Positions 3,285 to 39,361 of a DNA stretch of 52,443 nucleotides are shown here, in pieces. Within the stretch, counting starts at the first letter, position 1. Each line of letters begins with the position of its first letter. The stretch is from an uncultured Oscillospiraceae bacterium. Its GTDB lineage: Bacteria > Bacillota > Clostridia > Oscillospirales > Oscillospiraceae. Location: positions 1 to 52,443 of the forward strand of contig CATLFX010000015.1 in assembly GCA_949935795.1 (NCBI GenBank). The letters run 5' to 3'. The position numbers were made by a program, and so were the translations under genes. The notes beneath the pieces were generated by a model. That model did not search any database. It saw nothing but the letters and a program-made list of their open reading frames with translations, and was not told the DNA's origin.

Positions 3285-5816
3285 TCAGCTGATGCTGACC
3301 ACCTGATACCCGGCCTCCTCCACGGCGGCTCGGATGGCCTCGTCGGACACATCTCCGGTCACCACGGCGGTTTTGCTCTCCAGGTCCACGGCGGCGGACG
3401 CTCCCGGGATGGCGTTCAGGGCCTTGTCCACGTGGGCCCGGCAGTGCTGGCACATCATGCCTTCGATCAACACGTTCTTTTCCATGACTTTTTGTTCTCC
3501 TTTCATTTCAACAGCGGCGGCTTCGCCGGGTTTTACGTCGGAATGGGACTGAATGCTGGGCTTGAAGAAGCGCAGGCGCAGGGCGTTGGACACCACGCAC
3601 ACCGAGCTGAAGCTCATGGCGGCCCCGGCGATCATGGGGTTGAGCTGGGGCCCGCCCCAGATGGCCAGCAGTCCCGCCGCCACCGGGATGCACACGGCGT
3701 TGTAGAAGAACGCCCAGAACAGGTTCTGCTTCACATTGCGGATGGTGGCCCGTGACAGCTCCACCGCCGTCACCGCGTCCGCCAGGTCGGACTTCATCAG
3801 CACGATGTCGGCGCTCTCAATGGCCACGTCCGCCCCCGCGCCGATGGCAAGGCCCACGTCCGCCCGGGCCAGGGCCGGGGCGTCGTTGATGCCGTCCCCC
3901 ACCATGGCCACCTTTTCCCCCTGGGCCTGGAGGGCGGCGATCTGCCGCTCCTTGTCGGCGGGGAGCACCTCGGACACAACCTGCGTCAAGCCCAGTTCTT
4001 TGCCAATCGCCTCGGCGGTGCGCCTGTTGTCCCCGGTGAGCATGACCACCTTGAGGCCCAGCCTCTGGAAGCCCTCAATGGCGGCGCGGCTGGTCTCCTT
4101 CACCGTGTCCGCCACGGCGATGATGCCGATGGGCCGTCCGTCCTCCGCGAAAAACAGGGGAGTTTTGCCCTGTTTCGCCAATTCGTCGGCGATCATGGAA
4201 TTCTGGCCCAGATCCACCTTGGCGTCCGCCAGCATGGCGGCGTTGCCCGCCAGGTAGTCCGCCCCCTGGATGGCGCCCCGGACCCCTTTGCCGTGGACGG
4301 CTTCAAATCCCTCCACCGGGACCAGGGGGATGGAGTGGCCGGCGGCCTCCTCTACGATGGCCGCCCCCAGCGGGTGTTCCGACGGCTTCTCCAGCGACGC
4401 GGCCACACACAACAGCTCTTCCGCGGTGGTCTCCCCCAGGGGGTACAGGTCGGTGACCCGGGGCTTGCCCTGGGTGACGGTGCCCGTCTTGTCCAGCACT
4501 ACCGTGGTGACGGAGCGCAGGTGCTCCAGCCCTTCGGCGGACTTCACAAGAATGCCGTGCTCGGCCCCCTTGCCGGTGCCCACCATAATGGCCACCGGGG
4601 TGGCCAGCCCCAGGGCGCAGGGGCAGGAGATCACCAGCACCGCCACGCCGGAGGTGAGGGCCCGCTCCACGGAGCCGGTGGCGACCATCCAGATCATGGC
4701 GGTGACCAGAGCGATGGCCATGACCACAGGGACGAACACCCCCGCCACCTTGTCCGCCAGTTTGGCGATGGGGGCCTTGGAGGAGGCCGCCTCGTCCACC
4801 AGCCGGATCATCTGGGCCAGGGTGGTGTCCTCCCCCACCCGGGTGGCCCGGAGGGTGAGCACACCGGACTTGTTGATGGAGGCGGAGATCACCGTGTCGC
4901 CGGGGCCCTTGTCCACCGGGATGGACTCCCCGGTGAGGGCGGACTCGTCCACGCTGGACGCGCCCTCCACCACCACGCCGTCCACCGGCACCGACCCGCC
5001 GGGGCGCACCAGCACCAGGTCTCCCGCCTGCACCTGCTCCACGGGAACCTCCGTCTCCGCCCCGTCCCGGAGGACGGCGGCGGTTTTGGGGGTCAGGTCC
5101 ATGAGCCGGGCGATGGCCTGGCCCGTCTTGCCCTTGGAGCGGGTCTCCATATATTTGCCCAGGGTGATGAGGGTGAGGATCATCCCGGCGGACTCGAAGT
5201 ACAGGTCCATGGAGTAGTGCTCCACCAGGGCCAGGTCCCCGTGGCCCAGCCCCCAGCCGATGCAGTACAGGGCCGCGACGCCGTACACCACGGCGGCGGC
5301 GGAGCCCACGGCGATCAGCGAGTCCATGTTGGGGGAGAGATGCCAGAGAGTTTTAAATCCAACCCGGTAATACTTTTGGTTGATGACCATGATGGGCACG
5401 GTGAGCAGGAACAGGGTCAGGGCGTAGACCATAGCGTTGTCCGTCCCGTGGAAGAAATGAGGGATGGGCCAGCCCATCATGTGGCCCATGGACAGGTAAA
5501 ACAGGGGGATGAGGAACACAAAGGACCAGATCAGCCGGGCCTTCATGTTCTTCAGATCATCCTCCATGGCGTCCGCGGCGGGCTTGGCCTGGGCCTTTTC
5601 CCCCGCCGCCGCGGGCAGGGACGCCCCGTACCCCGCCTTTTCCACCGCGGACACGATCTGGTCCGGGGTGAGGGACCCGTCCCAGTCCACCGTCATGGAC
5701 CCGCCCAGCAGGTTCACATTGACCTCGCACACCCCGTCCAGCTTCCGCACCGCCTTGTCCACATGGGCGGAGCAGGCGGAGCAGGTCATGCCGGTGACGT
5801 TGAATTTTTGCTTCAT
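3285..5816 (-). CDS. copA: Copper-translocating P-type ATPase with an extra C-terminal HMA domain
   Basis: Exports Cu(I) across the cytoplasmic membrane using ATP. In order it has an N-terminal HMA domain (GMTCSAC), transmembrane segments, the ion-binding CPC motif (C398-P-C400 in SCPCALGLATP), the phosphorylated aspartate D442 in DKTGT, GDGINDAP, two last helices, and then, unusually, a second HMA domain at the C-terminus (MMCQHC, last 66 residues). CopA proteins normally carry their metal-binding domains only at the N-terminus, so this looks like a copA-copZ fusion. The start ATG has GAGGTG about 9 nt upstream. It lies 236 bp downstream of csoR on the same strand, so control by CsoR is likely. 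Confidence 0.96.
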   Translation of the reverse strand: MKQKFNVTGMTCSACSAHVDKAVRKLDGVCEVNVNLLGGSMTVDWDGSLTPDQIVSAVEKAGYGASLPAAAGEKAQAKPAADAMEDDLKNMKARLIWSFVFLIPLFYLSMGHMMGWPIPHFFHGTDNAMVYALTLFLLTVPIMVINQKYYRVGFKTLWHLSPNMDSLIAVGSAAAVVYGVAALYCIGWGLGHGDLALVEHYSMDLYFESAGMILTLITLGKYMETRSKGKTGQAIARLMDLTPKTAAVLRDGAETEVPVEQVQAGDLVLVRPGGSVPVDGVVVEGASSVDESALTGESIPVDKGPGDTVISASINKSGVLTLRATRVGEDTTLAQMIRLVDEAASSKAPIAKLADKVAGVFVPVVMAIALVTAMIWMVATGSVERALTSGVAVLVISCPCALGLATPVAIMVGTGKGAEHGILVKSAEGLEHLRSVTTVVLDKTGTVTQGKPRVTDLYPLGETTAEELLCVAASLEKPSEHPLGAAIVEEAAGHSIPLVPVEGFEAVHGKGVRGAIQGADYLAGNAAMLADAKVDLGQNSMIADELAKQGKTPLFFAEDGRPIGIIAVADTVKETSRAAIEGFQRLGLKVVMLTGDNRRTAEAIGKELGLTQVVSEVLPADKERQIAALQAQGEKVAMVGDGINDAPALARADVGLAIGAGADVAIESADIVLMKSDLADAVTAVELSRATIRNVKQNLFWAFFYNAVCIPVAAGLLAIWGGPQLNPMIAGAAMSFSSVCVVSNALRLRFFKPSIQSHSDVKPGEAAAVEMKGEQKVMEKNVLIEGMMCQHCRAHVDKALNAIPGASAAVDLESKTAVVTGDVSDEAIRAAVEEAGYQVVSIS
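3483..3503 (-). promoter_or_regulatory. Possible internal ribosome binding site and start for a CopZ-like peptide inside copA
   Basis: Within copA, AAAGGAG (complement of 3497-3503) precedes an in-frame ATG (3485-3483) by 11 nt. Translation from here would yield a 66-residue protein starting MEKNVLIEGMMCQHC, the size and motif of a free CopZ copper chaperone. The preceding linker is Ser/Glu/Ala-rich and reads like a former intergenic spacer. Initiation here is inference; the spacing is slightly long. Confidence 0.4.
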
Positions 5817-5838: not shown

Positions 5839-6036
5839 CTTCCTTTTTTCTTTGAAAAGAAAAAAGGAAGCGAAAAAAGAAACTTTTAGAACGTTTCCAA
5901 CGCAGGCTGTAACCCAAAGCATCACGCCGGCGACGAAAGGCGGCAATCGTGCGCACATCCATTTGTGACAGCATTTTTTCGCCGGCGGTTTAAAAGTTTC
6001 TTTTTGCTTACTTTTTCTTTACAAAGAAAAAGTAAG
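5839..6036. repeat. Inverted pair of hairpin-headed repeat ends between csoR and copA
   Basis: Two A/T-rich hairpins (5839-5870 and 6007-6036, the latter with 14-bp arms) face each other. Just inside each is a shared motif, GAAACTTTTA, preceded by GCGAAAAAA or GCAAAAA, in inverted orientation. The whole is about 198 bp. The right hairpin begins 16 nt after the csoR stop. Hairpin plus adjoining CAAAAAGAA-type sequence resembles the repeats near 19.8, 27.1 and 37.6 kb, though the central sequence differs. No gene is evident inside. Confidence 0.6.
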
Positions 6037-6052: not shown

Positions 6053-6313
6053 TTATAGTATCTTCCCCAGGGCGGCTACCAATTCGTCGATCTTGTCCGA
6101 CCGCTCCTTGTCGTCCTTGGCGTTCTCCACGCAGTGCTTGAGGTGGGCGGTCAGGATTTCCTTGTTTACCCGCCGCAGCATGGCGTCGGCGGCGGTGACC
6201 TGCTGGGAGATGTCCATGCAGTAGCGGTCCTCTTCTACCATTTTGATGATGCCGTCGATCTGGCCCCGGGCCGTTTTCAGCAGCCGGAGCACTGTTTTCT
6301 GGTCCGCCATCAT
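6053..6313 (-). CDS. csoR: CsoR-family copper-sensing transcriptional repressor
   Basis: A small all-helical DNA-binding protein that releases its operator on binding Cu(I). The 86-residue protein shows the family metal ligands with exact spacing: C32, H57 and C61 (C-x24-H-x3-C, in DRYCMD and AHLKHC). The start ATG at 6313 has AGGAGG 8 nt upstream; a second ATG follows directly. It is the first gene before copA, and a palindromic G/C-tract operator with a promoter lies immediately upstream, so it should repress itself and copA. The related nickel and persulfide sensors (RcnR/CstR) are alternatives, but the ligand set and the copA neighbour favour copper. Confidence 0.93.
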   Translation of the reverse strand: MMADQKTVLRLLKTARGQIDGIIKMVEEDRYCMDISQQVTAADAMLRRVNKEILTAHLKHCVENAKDDKERSDKIDELVAALGKIL

Positions 6314-19704: not shown

Positions 19705-19808
19705 ATCAAACAGCCTGTCCGCCGCCGGGCGGCAGTGGAACAGTGCCTGCCTGCGAACGTCAGCGGACTGAAGTTCTTTATGGATACTTTTTCTTTCAAG
19801 AAAAATTA
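19705..19808 (-). repeat. Hairpin-headed repeat, ABC locus, distal copy
   Basis: Read on the minus strand it starts with a hairpin (complement of 19784-19808, one arm slightly decayed), then AAGAACTTCAGTCCGC, GACGTTCGCAGGCAGGC and a GC-rich tail ending in TGTTTGA. It is in tandem with the copy at 19809-19920. Confidence 0.8.
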
Positions 19809-19920
19809 CCCGGCGCGTCTAGCGTCCTGTCCGCCGCCGGGCGGCAGTGGAACAGTGCCTGCCTGCGAACGTCAGCGAACCAAGTTCTTTTTGGATACTT
19901 TTTCTTTCAAGAAAAAGTAT
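19809..19920 (-). repeat. Hairpin-headed repeat, ABC locus, proximal copy
   Basis: The head is a perfect 12-bp stem (19895-19906 with 19909-19920, loop of 2 nt). The tail is CCAAAAAGAACTTGGTTCGC, then GACGTTCGCAGGCAGGC and a GC-rich section. The stop codon of the upstream ABC gene (19909-19907) lies inside the hairpin. Confidence 0.85.
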
Positions 19921-21664
19921 CTCCCATCTGTAGCTGATAGGTCTCACGGTAGGGGGCGCAGGTCTCCAGCAGCTCCTCATGGGTGCCGCAGCCCACGCAT
20001 TTTCCGTTGTCCAGCACCAGAATCCGGGTCATACCCATGACGGAGCTCACCCGCTGGGCCACCAGGATGAGGGCGGCCTCCCGGTAATTCCGGGTGATGG
20101 CCCGGCGCAGGCTGGCGTCGGTGCGGTAGTCCAGGGCGGAGGAGCTGTCGTCCAGGATCAGGACCTCCGGCTTCCCCGCCAGGGCCCGGGCCACCAGCAG
20201 CCGCTGCTTCTGCCCTCCGGACAGGTTGGCCCCCTTGATGTCCGCCCGGTGGTCCAGGCCGTCCTCCAGCGCGTCAATGTACTCCGCCGCCTGGGCGTCC
20301 TCCACGGCGGAGCGCAGGGCAGCCTCCTCCAGCTCCCGGCCAAAGTCCACATTGGCGCGCAGGGTGTCCTGGAACACCATGCCGCTCTGGAAGCACACGC
20401 CGAATTTCCGGCGCAGCTCGTCCTTCTCGTAGGCGCGCACATCCCGGCCGTCTACGAACACCCCGCCCCCGTCCGCGTCGTAGAACCGCAGGAGCAGATT
20501 GATGATGGTGGATTTGCCGCAGCCGGTGGGGCCGATGATCCCCAGGCTCTCCCCCCGGTCCAGGGTGAAGCTGACATCGCTGAGGGCCTTTTCCCGGGCC
20601 TCTCCGGCGAAGTCGGCGGCGTCGGCGGAGCCCTCTCCATAGCTGAAGTCCACATGCTCAAAGCGGAGAAAACCGGGCCCGGCGGGGGACTTGGCCTCTT
20701 GAGGCGGCAGCACCCGCTGGCTCTCCTCCGCCTGGAGCACCTGGCCGATGCGGCCGGCGCTGGCCGCCGCCCGGCTCATGGTCATGAAAATGCGGGACAG
20801 GCCCATGAGCCCCATGTTAATCATGTTGAAGTATGTAAGAAAAGCCAGGATCACCCCCGGCTCCAGGGCGCCGGCGTTCACCCGCCCCGCCCCGGTGAAC
20901 ACCACCAGGGCCAGCCCTCCGTTGAGGCAAAGCTGCATGAGCGGGGAGGGAACGGCCATCACCGTCCCGGCGGCGATGTCGCTGTCCGTCATGGCGTCGT
21001 TGGCCTGGGCGAACCGCCGCTTCTCATGCTCCGTCTTGGACAGAGCCTTCACCACCCGGATGCCGGTGATGTTCTCCCGCATGATGCGCACCACCTCATC
21101 CAGCCGCCCCTGAACCTGTCGGTACATGGGCAGGCCCCGGAGGTAAACCGCCAGCACCACCAAAATCAGCACCGGCAGCAGCGCCACCAGGATCATGGCC
21201 AGGGATGGGTCCATGATGAGCGCCATCACCGTCCCGCCCACCAGCAGCATGGGGGCCCGGACGCACAGGGTCTGGAGTTGCTGCACCGCCGATTGGACGT
21301 TGTAGCTGTCGCTGGTCATGCGGCTGATGAGGGAGGGCAGGCCGAAGGCGTCGAACTGCTCCCCCGACAGGTTGACGGTCTTCTGAAACAGGGCCTGGCG
21401 GACGTCATAGCTCACATTGTGGGCGTTTTGGACCCCCCGGCGGTTAGCCCACACGTTAAGCTGGCGGCACACCAGGGCGGCGGCGAACATCACCGCCCCC
21501 CAGAACAGGGCCAGGGGCAGACTGCCCATGGGGGCCACGCCGTCGATGATGTGCTCCAAAATATAGGGCAGCAGCAGCTCGCTGAAGGTGGCCAGCAGTT
21601 TGATGAACACGCACAGGGCCACCGCCCCCTTGTAACGGCCCATGGCCCGGCCGATCAGGCTCAT
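19907..21664 (-). CDS. ABC exporter subunit (degenerate Walker B, canonical signature)
   Basis: Second half-transporter, 585 residues, six membrane helices then a nucleotide-binding domain. Walker A is GPTGCGKST and the signature is the standard NLSGGQKQR, but Walker B reads LILDDSSSALD, with aspartate in place of the catalytic glutamate. With the next gene it forms one active and one degenerate ATP site. ATG 21664 has AAGGAGG upstream; a TTG seven codons earlier overlaps that site. The last residues, GDTFS and the stop, are encoded by the head of a repeat element. Confidence 0.92.
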   Translation of the reverse strand: MSLIGRAMGRYKGAVALCVFIKLLATFSELLLPYILEHIIDGVAPMGSLPLALFWGAVMFAAALVCRQLNVWANRRGVQNAHNVSYDVRQALFQKTVNLSGEQFDAFGLPSLISRMTSDSYNVQSAVQQLQTLCVRAPMLLVGGTVMALIMDPSLAMILVALLPVLILVVLAVYLRGLPMYRQVQGRLDEVVRIMRENITGIRVVKALSKTEHEKRRFAQANDAMTDSDIAAGTVMAVPSPLMQLCLNGGLALVVFTGAGRVNAGALEPGVILAFLTYFNMINMGLMGLSRIFMTMSRAAASAGRIGQVLQAEESQRVLPPQEAKSPAGPGFLRFEHVDFSYGEGSADAADFAGEAREKALSDVSFTLDRGESLGIIGPTGCGKSTIINLLLRFYDADGGGVFVDGRDVRAYEKDELRRKFGVCFQSGMVFQDTLRANVDFGRELEEAALRSAVEDAQAAEYIDALEDGLDHRADIKGANLSGGQKQRLLVARALAGKPEVLILDDSSSALDYRTDASLRRAITRNYREAALILVAQRVSSVMGMTRILVLDNGKCVGCGTHEELLETCAPYRETYQLQMGDTFS

Positions 21665-27008: not shown

Positions 27009-27072
27009 AAACATATCCCCAATATCAGCGCCGGCGGTGGCCGGGCGGTAATCCAACAAAAATAACCTACTA

Positions 27073-27127
27073 CGTCAGCGAACTAAAAGTTCTTTTTCGG
27101 TTCCTTTTTCTTTCAAGAAAAAGGAAC
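27073..27127 (-). repeat. Hairpin-headed repeat, MBOAT-DHHW locus (short copy)
   Basis: A perfect 13-bp stem (27100-27112 with 27115-27127) is followed on the minus strand by GAAAAAGAACTTTTAGTTCG and CTGACG; the GC-rich tail of other copies is missing. The hairpin starts 2 nt after the MBOAT stop codon. Confidence 0.8.
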
Positions 27128-27129
27128 GC

Positions 27130-28560
27130 TCAGAATCGGAAGTAGAGGAACGGATTGTAGGTTCCGTCCACCAGGTAGGCGGTGGTGAGCGCCAGCCCCG
27201 CCAGCATCAGCATCGGGAACGCAGCCTGCCGCGCCCGCTGGGGGAGCTTGTGCCAGACGGTTTTTCCCAGCGGGGTAGCCGCCGCGATGGCAATGACCAG
27301 AATGGGCAGATAGTTGCGCAGATAGTAGAGGAAATCCCCATCCAGCGCCCCCGCCCCGAAGCCGAACATAGCGGCCAGATAGGGCCCCATGGCGGAGAAG
27401 TCCTCCACGGCGAAGATGGCCCAGCCCACCACGGCGATGACCACGCCGTAGATGTGGCACACCCAAGCCGGGGTTTTCTCCAGCACTCTGCCCAGCCACA
27501 GCTTTTCCAGGCCGATCCACACAAACCAGTACAGGCCCCAGAGGAGGAAGTTCCAGCTGGCCCCGTGCCAGATGCCGGTGGCAGCCCACACCACCAGCAG
27601 GTTGAACACCATCCGGGGGGGCTTCACCCGGCTGCCCCCCAGTGGGAAGTAGAGGTACTCCCGGAACCAGCTGCCCAGGGAGATGTGCCACCGCCGCCAG
27701 AACTCGCTGGCAGACTTGGAGATATAGGGATAGTTGAAGTTCTCCAAAAACTCGAAGCCCAGCATGCGGCCCAGGCCGATGGCCATGTCGGAGTAGCCGG
27801 AGAAATCAAAATAGAGCTGGAGGGAGAAGGCCACGATGCCCAGCCAGGCCCCCAGGGTGGTGAGCCGGTCCCCGGGCGTGGCCAGGTACACGTCCCACAG
27901 GGGACCCAGGGCGTTGGCCAGCAGCACCTTTTTACAGGCGCCGATGGTAAAGCGCTGGACGCCGGAGGCAAATTTCTCAACGGTGTGGTCCCGGTGCTCC
28001 AGCTGATCGTCCAGGTCCTTATATTTAATGATGGGTCCGGCGATGAGCTGGGGGAACAGAGTGACGAAGGTGCCGAAGGTGATGATATTCTTCTGGCACC
28101 GGGCGTCTCCACGGTACACGTCGATGGTGTAGCTCATGGTCTGGAAGGTATAGAAGGAGATGCCGATGGGAAGGGTGAAGGGGATGGACCCCCCCGGCAG
28201 GGGCAGGCTGTCGATGACGGGCAAAAAGCCCGCGCCCACCGCCGCCAAACTGCCCGCGATGAAGTTGTAGTACTTGAAAAAGCCCAGCAGCAGCAGGTTG
28301 AACACCACCGACGAGGCCACCGCCATCCGGGCGCCCCTGTCGTTGCCGCTGGCCTTGCACCGGGTGACGATCCGCCCGTGGGAGTAGTCGATGGCGATGG
28401 AGGCAAACATGATGAGCACATATACCGGCTCTCCCCAGCCGTAGAAGATCAGGTTGACAACAAGGAGTACCAGGTTGCGCCACTTCAACGGAGAGATGTA
28501 GTATAAAAGCAATACGGCGGGGAAATAGAGAAACAGAAAATACGGACTGGAAAATATCAC
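27130..28560 (-). CDS. MBOAT-family O-acyltransferase (AlgI/DltB-like)
   Basis: A polytopic membrane protein of 476 residues with about 10-12 helices. It starts SPYFLFLYFPAVLLLYY and has the MBOAT active-site histidine in GIWHGASWNFLLWG and the upstream block FWRRWHISLGSWFREYLYFP. The family moves an acyl group across the membrane for O-acylation of surface polysaccharide or teichoic acid. The start codon is GTG with GAGGTG 7 nt upstream. It is followed by the DHHW partner and preceded by two DUF4358 lipoprotein genes, an arrangement common in Clostridia. Confidence 0.93.
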   Translation of the reverse strand: MIFSSPYFLFLYFPAVLLLYYISPLKWRNLVLLVVNLIFYGWGEPVYVLIMFASIAIDYSHGRIVTRCKASGNDRGARMAVASSVVFNLLLLGFFKYYNFIAGSLAAVGAGFLPVIDSLPLPGGSIPFTLPIGISFYTFQTMSYTIDVYRGDARCQKNIITFGTFVTLFPQLIAGPIIKYKDLDDQLEHRDHTVEKFASGVQRFTIGACKKVLLANALGPLWDVYLATPGDRLTTLGAWLGIVAFSLQLYFDFSGYSDMAIGLGRMLGFEFLENFNYPYISKSASEFWRRWHISLGSWFREYLYFPLGGSRVKPPRMVFNLLVVWAATGIWHGASWNFLLWGLYWFVWIGLEKLWLGRVLEKTPAWVCHIYGVVIAVVGWAIFAVEDFSAMGPYLAAMFGFGAGALDGDFLYYLRNYLPILVIAIAAATPLGKTVWHKLPQRARQAAFPMLMLAGLALTTAYLVDGTYNPFLYFRF

Positions 28561-37103: not shown

Positions 37104-37574
37104 ATGTCAATTCAGCGTGTCAAAGAATATTTTCGTTCTCTGGGCATGGAGGACCGGGTGCTGGAGTTCGACGTGTCCAGCGCCACCGTAGACTTGGCCG
37201 CCCAGGCTCTGGGGTGCCAGCCCTGCCGCATCGCCAAGACCCTGTCCTTCCTGGTGGATGGCCGCGCCATCCTCATTGTGGCCGCCGGAGACGCCAAGGT
37301 GGACAACCCCAAATATAAGGCCCAGTTCGGGACTAAGGCCAAAATGCTCACGCCCGAAGAAGTGGAGGAGCTGGTGGGCCACGCGGTGGGGGGCGTGTGT
37401 CCCTTCGCCGTCAACCAGGGCGTGACCGTCTACTTAGACCACTCCCTTAAGCGGTTTGAGACGGTGTTCCCCGCCTGTGGCAGCGGAAACAGCGCCATTG
37501 AGCTGTCCATTCCCGAGTTGGAGCAATACTCCGGCTGCGACTGCTGGGTGGACGTGTGCAAGGGCTGGCAGTAA
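37104..37574 (+). CDS. YbaK/EbsC-type aminoacyl-tRNA deacylase
   Basis: A 156-residue protein of the YbaK/ProX editing superfamily, which hydrolyses mischarged aminoacyl-tRNAs. Typical elements are CRIAKTLSFLVDG with the catalytic-pocket lysine, AAGDAKVDNPKYK, the GGVCPFAV glycine-rich loop and VYLDHSLKRFETVFPACGSGN. It is free-standing, not part of a prolyl-tRNA synthetase. AGGAG lies about 8 nt before the ATG. A triple repeat array begins 9 nt after its stop. Confidence 0.9.
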   Translation: MSIQRVKEYFRSLGMEDRVLEFDVSSATVDLAAQALGCQPCRIAKTLSFLVDGRAILIVAAGDAKVDNPKYKAQFGTKAKMLTPEEVEELVGHAVGGVCPFAVNQGVTVYLDHSLKRFETVFPACGSGNSAIELSIPELEQYSGCDCWVDVCKGWQ

Positions 37575-37582
37575 GGGCAAGA

Positions 37583-37698
37583 GGATACTTTTTCTTGAAA
37601 GAAAAAGTATCCAAAAAGAACTTTAGTCCGCTGACGTTCGCAGGCAGGCGTTGGGTCATTGCCGCCCGGCGACGGACAGGCCGTTTGACACACAGTGC
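37583..37698 (+). repeat. Hairpin-headed repeat, ybaK locus, copy 1
   Basis: A 14-bp stem (37583-37596 with 37599-37612) begins 9 nt after the YbaK-type gene's stop and is followed by CAAAAAGAACTTTAGTCCGC, TGACGTTCGCAGGCAGGC and a GC-rich tail with GACGGACAGGCCGTTTGACA. Confidence 0.9.
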
Positions 37699-37809
37699 AC
37701 TTTTTCTTGAGAGAAAAAGTACCAAAAAGGACTTTAGTCCGCTGACGTTCGCAGGCAGGCGTTGGGTCATTGCTGCCCGGCGACGGACAGGCCGTTTGAC
37801 ACACAGTGC
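37699..37809 (+). repeat. Hairpin-headed repeat, ybaK locus, copy 2
   Basis: Direct repeat of copy 1 with a 111-bp period. The head hairpin (37699-37720) has one G-U pair. The tail is almost identical to copy 1 (one difference in TTGCTGCCCGG). Confidence 0.9.
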
Positions 37810-37891
37810 ACTTTTTCTTGAGAGAAAAAGTACCAAAAAGGACTTTAGTCCGCTGATGTTCGCAGGCAGGTACTGTTCCACAGCCGCCTGG
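37810..37891 (+). repeat. Hairpin-headed repeat, ybaK locus, copy 3 (truncated)
   Basis: Same head and CAAAAAGGACTTTAGTCCGC as copy 2. The tail switches to CAGGTACTGTTCCACAGCCG, which matches the ABC-locus copies, then breaks off at the end of the convergent pseudogene. Confidence 0.85.
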
Positions 37892-37892
37892 C

Positions 37893-38170
37893 TCTCCCGC
37901 CACAGGGCAAACACCGTCTTCACGCTTTGGTGACAGCGTCGCCGCACACCAACAATACGCGGGAGCGGCGCAGCAGGTCCCGGCTCATGTCAATGCTGCT
38001 CTTGTGCTCCTCCGGCACTGCGTCATTGAGAAACAGGGGGAGATACAATGTGGGGCAGATAGGTGAAAAGCCCGCCTCATAAACGGCCCGACAGTACCGG
38101 GTGGCCTGTTCCGCCGCTTCCGTGGGATCGCCGCTCCATGCGGCGTGACATACATCAAAGGCATTTTCAT
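37893..38170 (-). pseudogene. Frameshifted DUF7768/DUF4406-like gene remnant
   Basis: A ribosome binding site (CGGAGG) and ATG at 38170 open MKMPLMYV. The conserved body then continues in another frame: CHAAWSGDPTEAAEQATRYC, EAGFSPICPTLYLPLFLND, DLLRRSRVLLVCGD. A 4-nt contraction in the TATG-rich start would explain the shift. After CGDAVTKA a TGA appears, where one missing base would restore MKTVFALW. The 3' end runs into repeat copy 3. The family resembles nucleoside deoxyribosyltransferase-like proteins of phages and clostridia. Family name from memory, moderate certainty. Confidence 0.65.
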
Positions 38171-38326: not shown

Positions 38327-39361
38327 ATGAATGAAGCGGGAGTGGGGTGCGAAGGTATGCAGCTGAAATATCACATGATAACGATAGAAGACCTGGTGCC
38401 ACAAGATCATTTTTTGCGGAAGCTGGAAGCGGCGCTGGATTTGACATTCGTCTATGAGGAAATGGCGCATCTGTACAGCCGGAGGTATGGCCGTCCGCCC
38501 ATCGACCCTGTGGTCATAATCAAGTATTTGCTGGTAGGCTTTCTGTATGGCATCCCCTCGGAGCGGCAGATTGAGGAGCGGTACATGGACAGCAACGCGT
38601 TTCGCTGGTATCTTGGTATTGATCTGGATGAACGGGTGCCGGATCACAGCACGATCAGCCAGCTGCGGCGGCGGAAGCCGACGTTTCGGAAGGTGTTCCG
38701 GCGGTTGTTTGAGGAAGTGGGGCTGGAAACACTCAAAACGCGGACAGGCGGGCGGCGGAAGAAGCGCACCCGGAAGATCAAAAAAGATACCCGGCGGACG
38801 AAGAAACGGGTCAGCCGGACAGACCCCGAGGCCGGGCACATGAAACGGCCAGGGAAACCGCGGGGCCAATACTACCTTTCCCACCAGACTTTGGACAGCG
38901 ACCATGGGATCATCATCGGCCTGACCGTTACGCCGGGGGATGTCCATGATACGGTGCCCTATCTGGAACAGGTGGAATCTGTCCATCAAAGGGTCATTCC
39001 GCTGCGGGCTGCCGCCGCGGACTCGGCCTACGATTTTCCTCTGGCCCACCGGGAATTGGAGAAATTGGGGATCGATTTCTTTGTCCGGCCTCAGCCGGCT
39101 CATGACCGAACCAAGGTGGAGCTAAAACGGGATGCGTTCACGTATGACGCAGCGAAAGATGTTTACATCTGTCCAAACGGGAATGCTCTGCGTCCGAAAG
39201 GCCTGTACCGCAGCGACAGCGGCCTGTTCTGGGAATACTGGGCGGACAAGAAGGACTGCGGCAGCTGTCCTTTGCGGGAAAAATGTTTGAGCGCGGAGGA
39301 TCACTGCCTCCTTTCCGCCGTAGCTATGAACCTCAAAAGAATGATACGATGCCTGAATTGA
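38327..39361 (+). CDS. IS1182-like transposase, internally deleted (probably inactive)
   Basis: A 344-residue transposase with the family N-terminus (DLVPQDHFLRKLEAALDLTF, GRPPIDPVVIIKYLLVGFLY), RWYLGIDL with PDHSTISQLRRR, the zone of the first catalytic aspartate (TLDSDHGIIIG) and the second (AAADSAYDFPLAH). The cysteine cluster CGSCPLREKC follows. Full-length relatives then have about 70 residues bearing the third catalytic glutamate; here the frame jumps straight to LLSAVAMNLKRM. The deletion keeps the frame. The element probably cannot transpose unaided. Terminal inverted repeats were not found. Confidence 0.85.
   Translation: MNEAGVGCEGMQLKYHMITIEDLVPQDHFLRKLEAALDLTFVYEEMAHLYSRRYGRPPIDPVVIIKYLLVGFLYGIPSERQIEERYMDSNAFRWYLGIDLDERVPDHSTISQLRRRKPTFRKVFRRLFEEVGLETLKTRTGGRRKKRTRKIKKDTRRTKKRVSRTDPEAGHMKRPGKPRGQYYLSHQTLDSDHGIIIGLTVTPGDVHDTVPYLEQVESVHQRVIPLRAAAADSAYDFPLAHRELEKLGIDFFVRPQPAHDRTKVELKRDAFTYDAAKDVYICPNGNALRPKGLYRSDSGLFWEYWADKKDCGSCPLREKCLSAEDHCLLSAVAMNLKRMIRCLN

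Follow-up and report, generated by a model that had tools for sequence, protein, structure and literature searches.

The hairpin-headed repeat that follows a gene end at positions 37583-37891 raises the question of whether such a sequence is a module of RNA 3'-end formation or an element that inserts itself behind genes. It lies in the window, the whole 52,443-nt stretch of DNA of an uncultured Oscillospiraceae bacterium (the host) that was analyzed here. We consider it rather likely that the repeat is a non-autonomous interspersed element of the REP/BIME kind, which has spread by insertion and acts as a structured, non-terminating spacer.

The repeat units of the window

Eight units were found at four loci of the window. 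Gene ends were taken from our own codon-usage gene caller, and gene starts are approximate.

37583..37696, plus strand: unit 1 of the triple array; first hairpin (HP1) at 37583-37612 with 14-bp arms GGATACTTTTTCTT, tag AAAAAGAACTT, second hairpin (HP2) to about 37678, then a tail
37699..37807, plus strand: unit 2 of the triple array; HP1 at 37699-37720 with 10-bp arms
37810..37891, plus strand: unit 3 of the triple array, 3' end incomplete
37104..37574, plus strand: gene with an aminoacyl-tRNA editing domain (PF04073), upstream of the triple array, whose first HP1 begins 8 nt after the stop of this gene
19812..19921, minus strand: unit at 19.7k; HP1 at 19894-19921; the upstream ABC transporter gene has its TGA stop (19907-19909) in the HP1 loop
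19705..19811, minus strand: second tandem unit at 19.7k, with an imperfect HP1 palindrome
19907..21664, minus strand: ABC transporter gene, whose last codons and stop come from the unit, unlike in relatives
27032..27127, minus strand: full unit at 27k; HP1 at 27100-27127, beginning 2 nt after the MBOAT stop codon (27130-27132)
27130..28560, minus strand: MBOAT O-acyltransferase gene, upstream of the 27k unit
5940..6036, minus strand: unit with a GAAACTT tag; HP1 at 6007-6036, beginning 16 nt after the stop of the csoR-type gene; inner end approximate
5839..5935, plus strand: convergent partner unit; HP1 at 5839-5870, 22 nt from the copA-type gene start, which it faces; inner end approximate
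6053..6313, minus strand: csoR-type metal-sensitive repressor gene (PF02583)
3285..5816, minus strand: copA-type heavy-metal ATPase gene (E1-E2_ATPase, HMA)

The three tandem units at 37583-37891, which the first-pass annotation had reported, were recovered by Tandem Repeats Finder with a period of 111 and 97% matches, and two tandem units at 19705-19921 on the minus strand were likewise found. The copy given as 27073-27127 is present (minus strand, HP1 from 27127) but is not short, its G+C-rich part extending to about 27032 in the unit alignment. Hairpins do lie at 5839 and 6036, but they belong to two convergent units, not to one diverged copy as had been thought. One transposase gene (DUF772, DDE_Tnp_1; 38357-39361, plus strand) lies downstream of the triple array.

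A unit is about 95-115 bp long and combines an A/T-rich palindrome (HP1), a AAAAAGAAC tag and a G+C-rich imperfect hairpin (HP2). The HP1 palindrome is built around CTTTTTCTT and has 2-3 nt at its centre. C or CG usually comes next, and after it the tag, AAAAAGAACTT or AAAAAGAAACTT, the G+C-rich HP2 stretch and a tail. By tag, units fall into two types, GAACTT and GAAACTT. HP1 arms as drawn by our script measure 10-15 bp in 88 of 97 host units (the remainder up to 19), and the palindrome is perfect in 80 of the 97. The HP2 stretch often reads TTCGCTGACG...GCCCGGCAACG and could form an imperfect hairpin; its 3' motif was detected in 78/97 units, and for 66 of the 78 the distance from the start of HP1 to the end of the motif is 86-96 nt. 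Single units, tandem arrays and convergent pairs are all found. Terminal inverted repeats are not visible in a single unit, inverted ends being present only in convergent pairs.

Two variations on this plan were seen. A GCGAAACTTCGTTTCGCTT-type hairpin replaces HP2 after HP1 and the tag in L023, L035, L028 and L052 (one copy with a single change). In several units (L036, L044, L015, L012, L079) HP1 is closely preceded by a shared GGTCAAGGGC, which may belong to the element as an outer part.

Copy number and distribution

The host assembly is partial (2.24 Mb, 69.7% complete). Scanning the window and 46 fetched stretches gave at least 97 units in the host genome; the stretches had been selected for containing matches, and the fetch favoured intact HP1. 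An exact pattern of 3' arm plus tag had 67 matches in the host genome against none for a reversed control, so the repeat is not a product of chance. BLASTN of the host returned 51 matches, some of them the palindrome matched on both strands. Since dispersed copies are only 72-85% identical (BLASTN matches longer than 120 nt), recent movement is not demonstrated.

Nine of 24 other species of the genus carry the pattern, at 1 to 40 matches per species (a single match in 3/24 for the reversed control), and BLASTN found unit-like matches in further species of the genus. Among genomes of the order outside the genus, 20/193 had one match each, one of which resembles the core, and the reversed control matched in 13/193; the pattern is therefore at background there. 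At least 117 stretches of the named-genome collection carry it. The 80 titles among the matches listed name Oscillospiraceae, Oscillibacter, Flavonifractor, Lawsonibacter, Intestinimonas, one Faecalibacterium, and uncultured Clostridia, Clostridiales, Bacillota or bacterium.

Four contigs of a viral collection carry the pattern as well. The phage-like contig L202 (IMGVR_UViG_3300010163_003533) has units at 1200-1500 and 2560-2880 between phage-like ORFs, which we take, reading them by eye and not by family search, to be terminase, portal and head genes. The first of these units is preceded by a second copy of the 5' half of HP1, and the TGA in this copy is the stop of the upstream ORF. Collections of plasmid and phage records gave no matches at E 1e-5. 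Rfam returned no match above the gathering score in the window, and over 37540-37960 one weak match (E 8.3) outside the units. In the open-access literature, searches with the motif letters gave no bacterial-repeat paper by title, and searches combining repeat and host names gave nothing relevant among the matches listed; a further search listed no paper dealing with REPs close to stop codons. The earlier view that no named family has this layout thus holds for the sequence, absent from Rfam and the open literature searched, but not for the layout, which is known from REP repeats in passages of PMC3733652.

Position and orientation relative to genes

Units lie between genes: none of the 97 host units and only one of 157 first-in-line units in other species lies inside a called gene (a first-in-line unit has no same-strand unit within 200 nt upstream). 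The first-pass annotation had held that the hairpin always abuts gene 3' ends and had suggested tabulating orientation and distance to stop codons. Across the host genome this tabulation revealed a bias to stops and not a rule. Among the 91 first-in-line units of the host, the hairpin points to a 3' end in 62 and to a 5' end in 27, the copA-type start included; the other 2 have no called neighbour. Both neighbours were called for 88 units; 39 had no facing partner and lay between co-directional genes, and in 32 of the 39 the hairpin faces the 3' end of the upstream gene (32:7, binomial p 7e-5). The bias is weaker in other species, where 51 of 81 such units have this orientation (51:30, p 0.026). 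It differs between tag types, GAACTT units facing 3' and 5' ends in a ratio of 48 to 9 (2 undetermined) and GAAACTT units in a ratio of 14 to 18.

Stop-facing units also tend to begin close to the stop codon. HP1 starts at -16 to +1 of the stop in 29/61 stop-facing host units, against 13.5 expected for uniform placement in the same spacers, and in 54/89 such units of other species, against 24.0 expected. The stop codon lies at least partly within HP1 in 19/61 and 34/89 units, respectively. Spacers with units are unidirectional, convergent and divergent in 54, 10 and 3 cases in the host and in 88, 29 and 10 cases in the other species; compared with unit-free spacers, the shortage of divergent ones is not significant (Fisher p 0.056 in the host, 0.13 in the others). 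At one shared junction, three genomes carry units with two HP1 arm types (L045 1973, L154 2560, L178 1834); the flanking genes there we read as mraZ- and rsmH-like.

Orthologous spacers with and without the unit

Six loci were compared with 40 orthologous stretches of relatives, of which 30 have no unit, nine have one and one, in G018, has an HP1-like start and about 1.3 kb of other DNA. The units are best read as insertions, because the relatives' spacers at the six loci exist without a unit; insertion at gene 3' ends, one of the options raised at first pass, is thereby borne out.

At 19.7k, the aligned flanks are 11-13 nt apart in 6/11 relatives, and the upstream gene there ends in TAG. The window gene lacks this TAG end, and the TGA of the HP1 loop is its stop. 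Among the remaining five relatives, a different G+C-rich repeat is present in three and 45 nt of other sequence in a fourth; the fifth is G018. The different repeat family, of the GCCGAAGGCTGCC or GCCGCAAGGCGACC type, was seen right after that stop codon in G042, G049 and G043 (L069, L071 and L075), and for this reason the position may be a general hotspot. At 27k, 3/9 relatives have 13-16 nt and 6/9 have units; the arms of four of these six are unlike those of the window and still self-complementary, and the window's downstream flank GGGGATAT is common to three of the six.

The unit is missing from two of four relatives at C4:36.9k and from all nine relatives examined at 44k and 76.8k. At C4:72k, six of seven relatives have no unit, and their stop and the following start codon overlap (three as ATGA, three as GTGA), whereas 113 nt separate the two genes in the host. 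Neighbouring genes are thus set apart, and the suggested intercistronic decoupling is plausible as an effect. Units without a partner have been inserted at C4:36.9k, 72k and 76.8k.

At three loci the stop codon has been rebuilt with letters of HP1: GGC-TGA (ancestral) against GGC-TAG+TTC (host) at 36.9k, GCA-TGA (ancestral) against GCA-TAG+TTC (host) at 72k, and, in the comparison involving G054 at 27k, TTT-TAA against TTT-TAG+TTCC. No clean target-site duplication could be read at these sites because the spacers diverge fast and the flanks have become too different; an AT is possibly doubled at C4:72k.

In G016, a different G+C-rich repeat sits within the HP1 loop of an otherwise intact unit at the C4:72k site (L229). 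Elsewhere half an HP1, from 5' arm to loop, directly precedes a whole one, an arrangement to be expected had an existing unit received a newer one in its loop (L015 6510, L027 8958, L031 4053, L040 3998, L044 6112, L094 637, L100 1948, L123 6240, L172 3782, L177 4106). The script for half HP1s flagged 12/255 units, two of which (L010, L147) resemble plain pyrimidine runs.

Conservation of the two hairpins

Conservation was analyzed in the 55 of 97 units that passed filters on tag type, HP1 anchor and HP2 motif. Four variable HP1 pairs contain 75 double changes and no one-sided change, and all 12 HP1 pairs together contain 19 unpaired cells and one G-U in 660 cells. The change cells do not amount to 75 events, as the 55 units have only 17 different five-letter arm strings and thus few independent arm types. 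None of 500 shuffles attained the covariation score computed for the complete structure as drawn, with HP2; two other measures, pairs with double changes (27/500) and further pair types (494/500), did not go beyond shuffles. HP2 as an RNA fold is a modest claim, because RNAalifold predicts HP1 only and HP2 as drawn is paired in 71.9% of cells, with few double changes and 46 G-U cells.

Selection at the RNA level is expected to pass through G-U pairs. The rarity of G-U in HP1 suggests that either both strands of HP1 matter or template switching restores the palindrome. As HP1 is kept as a near-perfect double-strand palindrome, the data point to its recognition or correction at the DNA level.

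The near-perfect palindrome could also be the outcome of a mutational process, quasipalindrome correction by template switching, and not of selection, in which case the unit would be functionless. Such a process would fit HP1 changes that are nearly all double Watson-Crick, set against the G-U cells of HP2, as well as arms that differ at orthologous sites yet stay complementary (27k, and 36.9k with GTTC/GAAC in the host and GTCC/GGAC in G002). It would also fit the frequent degradation of HP1 in later tandem copies, which is intact in 14/24 of them against 63/67 first copies in a set whose fetch favoured intact HP1. However, it leaves both the AAAAAGAAC tag and the position at stop codons unexplained, only 80/97 palindromes are perfect, G-U occurs in the script-drawn (in part over-extended) arms of 12/97 units, and the independent arm types are few. 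We regard this explanation as doubtful and retain an inserting REP/BIME-like element as the preferred one.

Convergent pairs and the search for a mover

A facing partner lies within 450 bp of 40/91 first-in-line units, and 51/91 have none. The 21 convergent pairs comprise 14 of GAACTT with GAAACTT, 6 of GAAACTT only and 1 of GAACTT only. Such pairs, together with the similar inverted ends that frame the window pair at 5839-6036, might be taken for the terminal inverted repeats of a longer MITE of a DDE-type insertion sequence, with partnerless units as its broken remains. This origin is unlikely, given that 51/91 units are partnerless, that the anatomy of units is constant (the HP2 3' motif and its spacing described above), that the partners differ in tag type in 14/21 convergent pairs, that partnerless units have themselves been inserted at the three C4 loci, and that no transposase was recognized by eye in the translations between facing units. 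Nor was one recognized among the six clusters of three or more formed by 355 adjacent genes, whose printed sequences were read by eye; these clusters presumably represent ordinary genes (response regulators, MraZ-like, RsmH-like and others). These readings by eye thus gave no candidate for an autonomous parent element.

The Y1_Tnp family of RAYT transposases (PF01797) is absent from the host, whose assembly is 70% complete and could be missing the gene. It is present in 16/42 genomes of the genus searched; among nine unit-bearing relatives, three have it (G004, G015, G024) and six do not (G002, G014, G016, G017, G018, G023). An IS200/RAYT origin is unsupported by this search of 42 genomes.

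Termination and RNA ends

HP1 is followed by C or CG and then AAAAAG, with no T run. In 131 stop-facing units, terminator calls numbered none at HP1, seven starting in the HP2 stretch and seven on the antisense strand. Because the terminator caller requires 4 G-C pairs, which many HP1 stems lack, the argument concerning HP1 rests on the missing T run, which rules out HP1 as an intrinsic terminator and leaves the earlier suggestion of RNA 3'-end formation unsupported as far as this route is concerned. In convergent spacers, a terminator call starts at least 75 nt from HP1 in 12/34 units.

Terminators were called in 17/26 convergent and 35/117 co-directional unit-free spacers of the host, and in 29/50 and 32/204, respectively, in other species. 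Co-directional spacers with a unit had calls in 4/46 cases in the host, against 35/117 without, and in 9/51 against 32/204 in the other species; as the difference is absent in the latter, nothing is concluded from the host deficit. Predicted RNA folds are more stable than shuffles in four of five units (z -3.2 to -4.9; the fifth, z -1.2). Some cores continue into terminator-like hairpins in place of HP2.

A rival view, in which selection maintains the unit at gene ends as a module of RNA 3'-end formation or termination, would agree with the polarity to stop codons, with the folds that beat shuffles in 4/5 units and with the cores running into terminator-like hairpins, but is very unlikely in view of the missing T run, the 0/131, 7/131 and 7/131 calls at HP1, HP2 and antisense, the calls further downstream in convergent spacers and the 27/91 first-in-line units that face 5' ends. 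Processing or protection of RNA 3' ends by the unit is possible.

Proposed explanation and its significance

For the REP/BIME-like element we propose the following course. Units would spread by insertion into the short interval that separates a stop codon from the following ribosome-binding site, and would be tolerated there because HP1 restores the stop and the next start is kept. Once inserted, a unit would be transcribed as a structured spacer without terminating transcription, and would separate the translation of the neighbouring genes. It may in addition shield the upstream message from 3' exonucleases, a proposed role of REPs.

It is conceivable, if on balance not expected, that the units form a third, AAAAAGAAC-tagged super-family of REP-like repeats, moved by an enzyme whose cleavage sites are stop codons or their immediate surroundings, and having ends that recreate the stop (T+GA, TA+G or the loop TGA). 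If so, the repeat would be adapted to invading operons while leaving intact the gene to which it attaches, and translational coupling would be replaced by a structured spacer. REP-like genomic behaviour in Oscillospiraceae-type bacteria, without the REP tag and apparently without the transposase, raises the question of whether stop-adjacent palindromes arise via different movers. Filled and empty sites at transporter and other operons make it testable how insertion finds stops and how a non-terminating spacer affects operon expression.

Comparison with known systems

Work in E. coli has reportedly dealt with REPs near stop codons. A RAYT in the genome is a feature of GTAG REPs. According to portions of PMC3733652, REPs lie less than 20 bp from gene 3' ends and their termini supply TAG stop codons, and descriptions of REP repeats and of their single-strand transposases come predominantly from gamma- and alphaproteobacteria; the main text contains no word starting with Firmicutes or Clostridi. 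As far as these portions describe them, the present units resemble REP/BIME in being intergenic palindromes of high copy number that occur as singles and opposite-orientation dimers, and resemble REPs in adjoining gene 3' ends and supplying stop codons (PMC3733652). Unlike REPs, they have neither a GTAG nor a CGTC tag and carry a 3' AAAAAGAAC tag instead: in the 55-unit alignment the conserved unpaired letters, on the 3' side, read AAAAAGAAC, and GTAG is confined to one arm class, where it forms part of the paired 3' arm. They further differ in joining an A/T-rich palindrome to a second hairpin, in that no RAYT-type gene was found in the host, and in matching beyond background only in Firmicutes of one group.

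YPAL/RU-2 of Yersinia, in the account given by parts of PMC2229807, is a non-autonomous repeat of about 168 bp with target duplications of 3-26 bp. It shares with the present units internal inverted repeats and empty and filled sites, and is said to be co-translated with upstream genes; host and size differ, no target duplication was resolved here, and those parts do not mention stop-codon targeting. RUP, Correia/NEMIS and ERIC are likewise about 100-200 bp, mostly intergenic and able to form stem-loops (PMC2229807, in part), but theirs are terminal inverted repeats ending in TA, of which none is visible in a single unit here.

Altogether, REP/BIME is the closest known kind by behaviour, although by definition the units are neither GTAG nor CGTC REPs. 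Judged by sequence, they are best described as a REP-like family with a new sequence that favours stop codons, and the function given to them above is a proposal.
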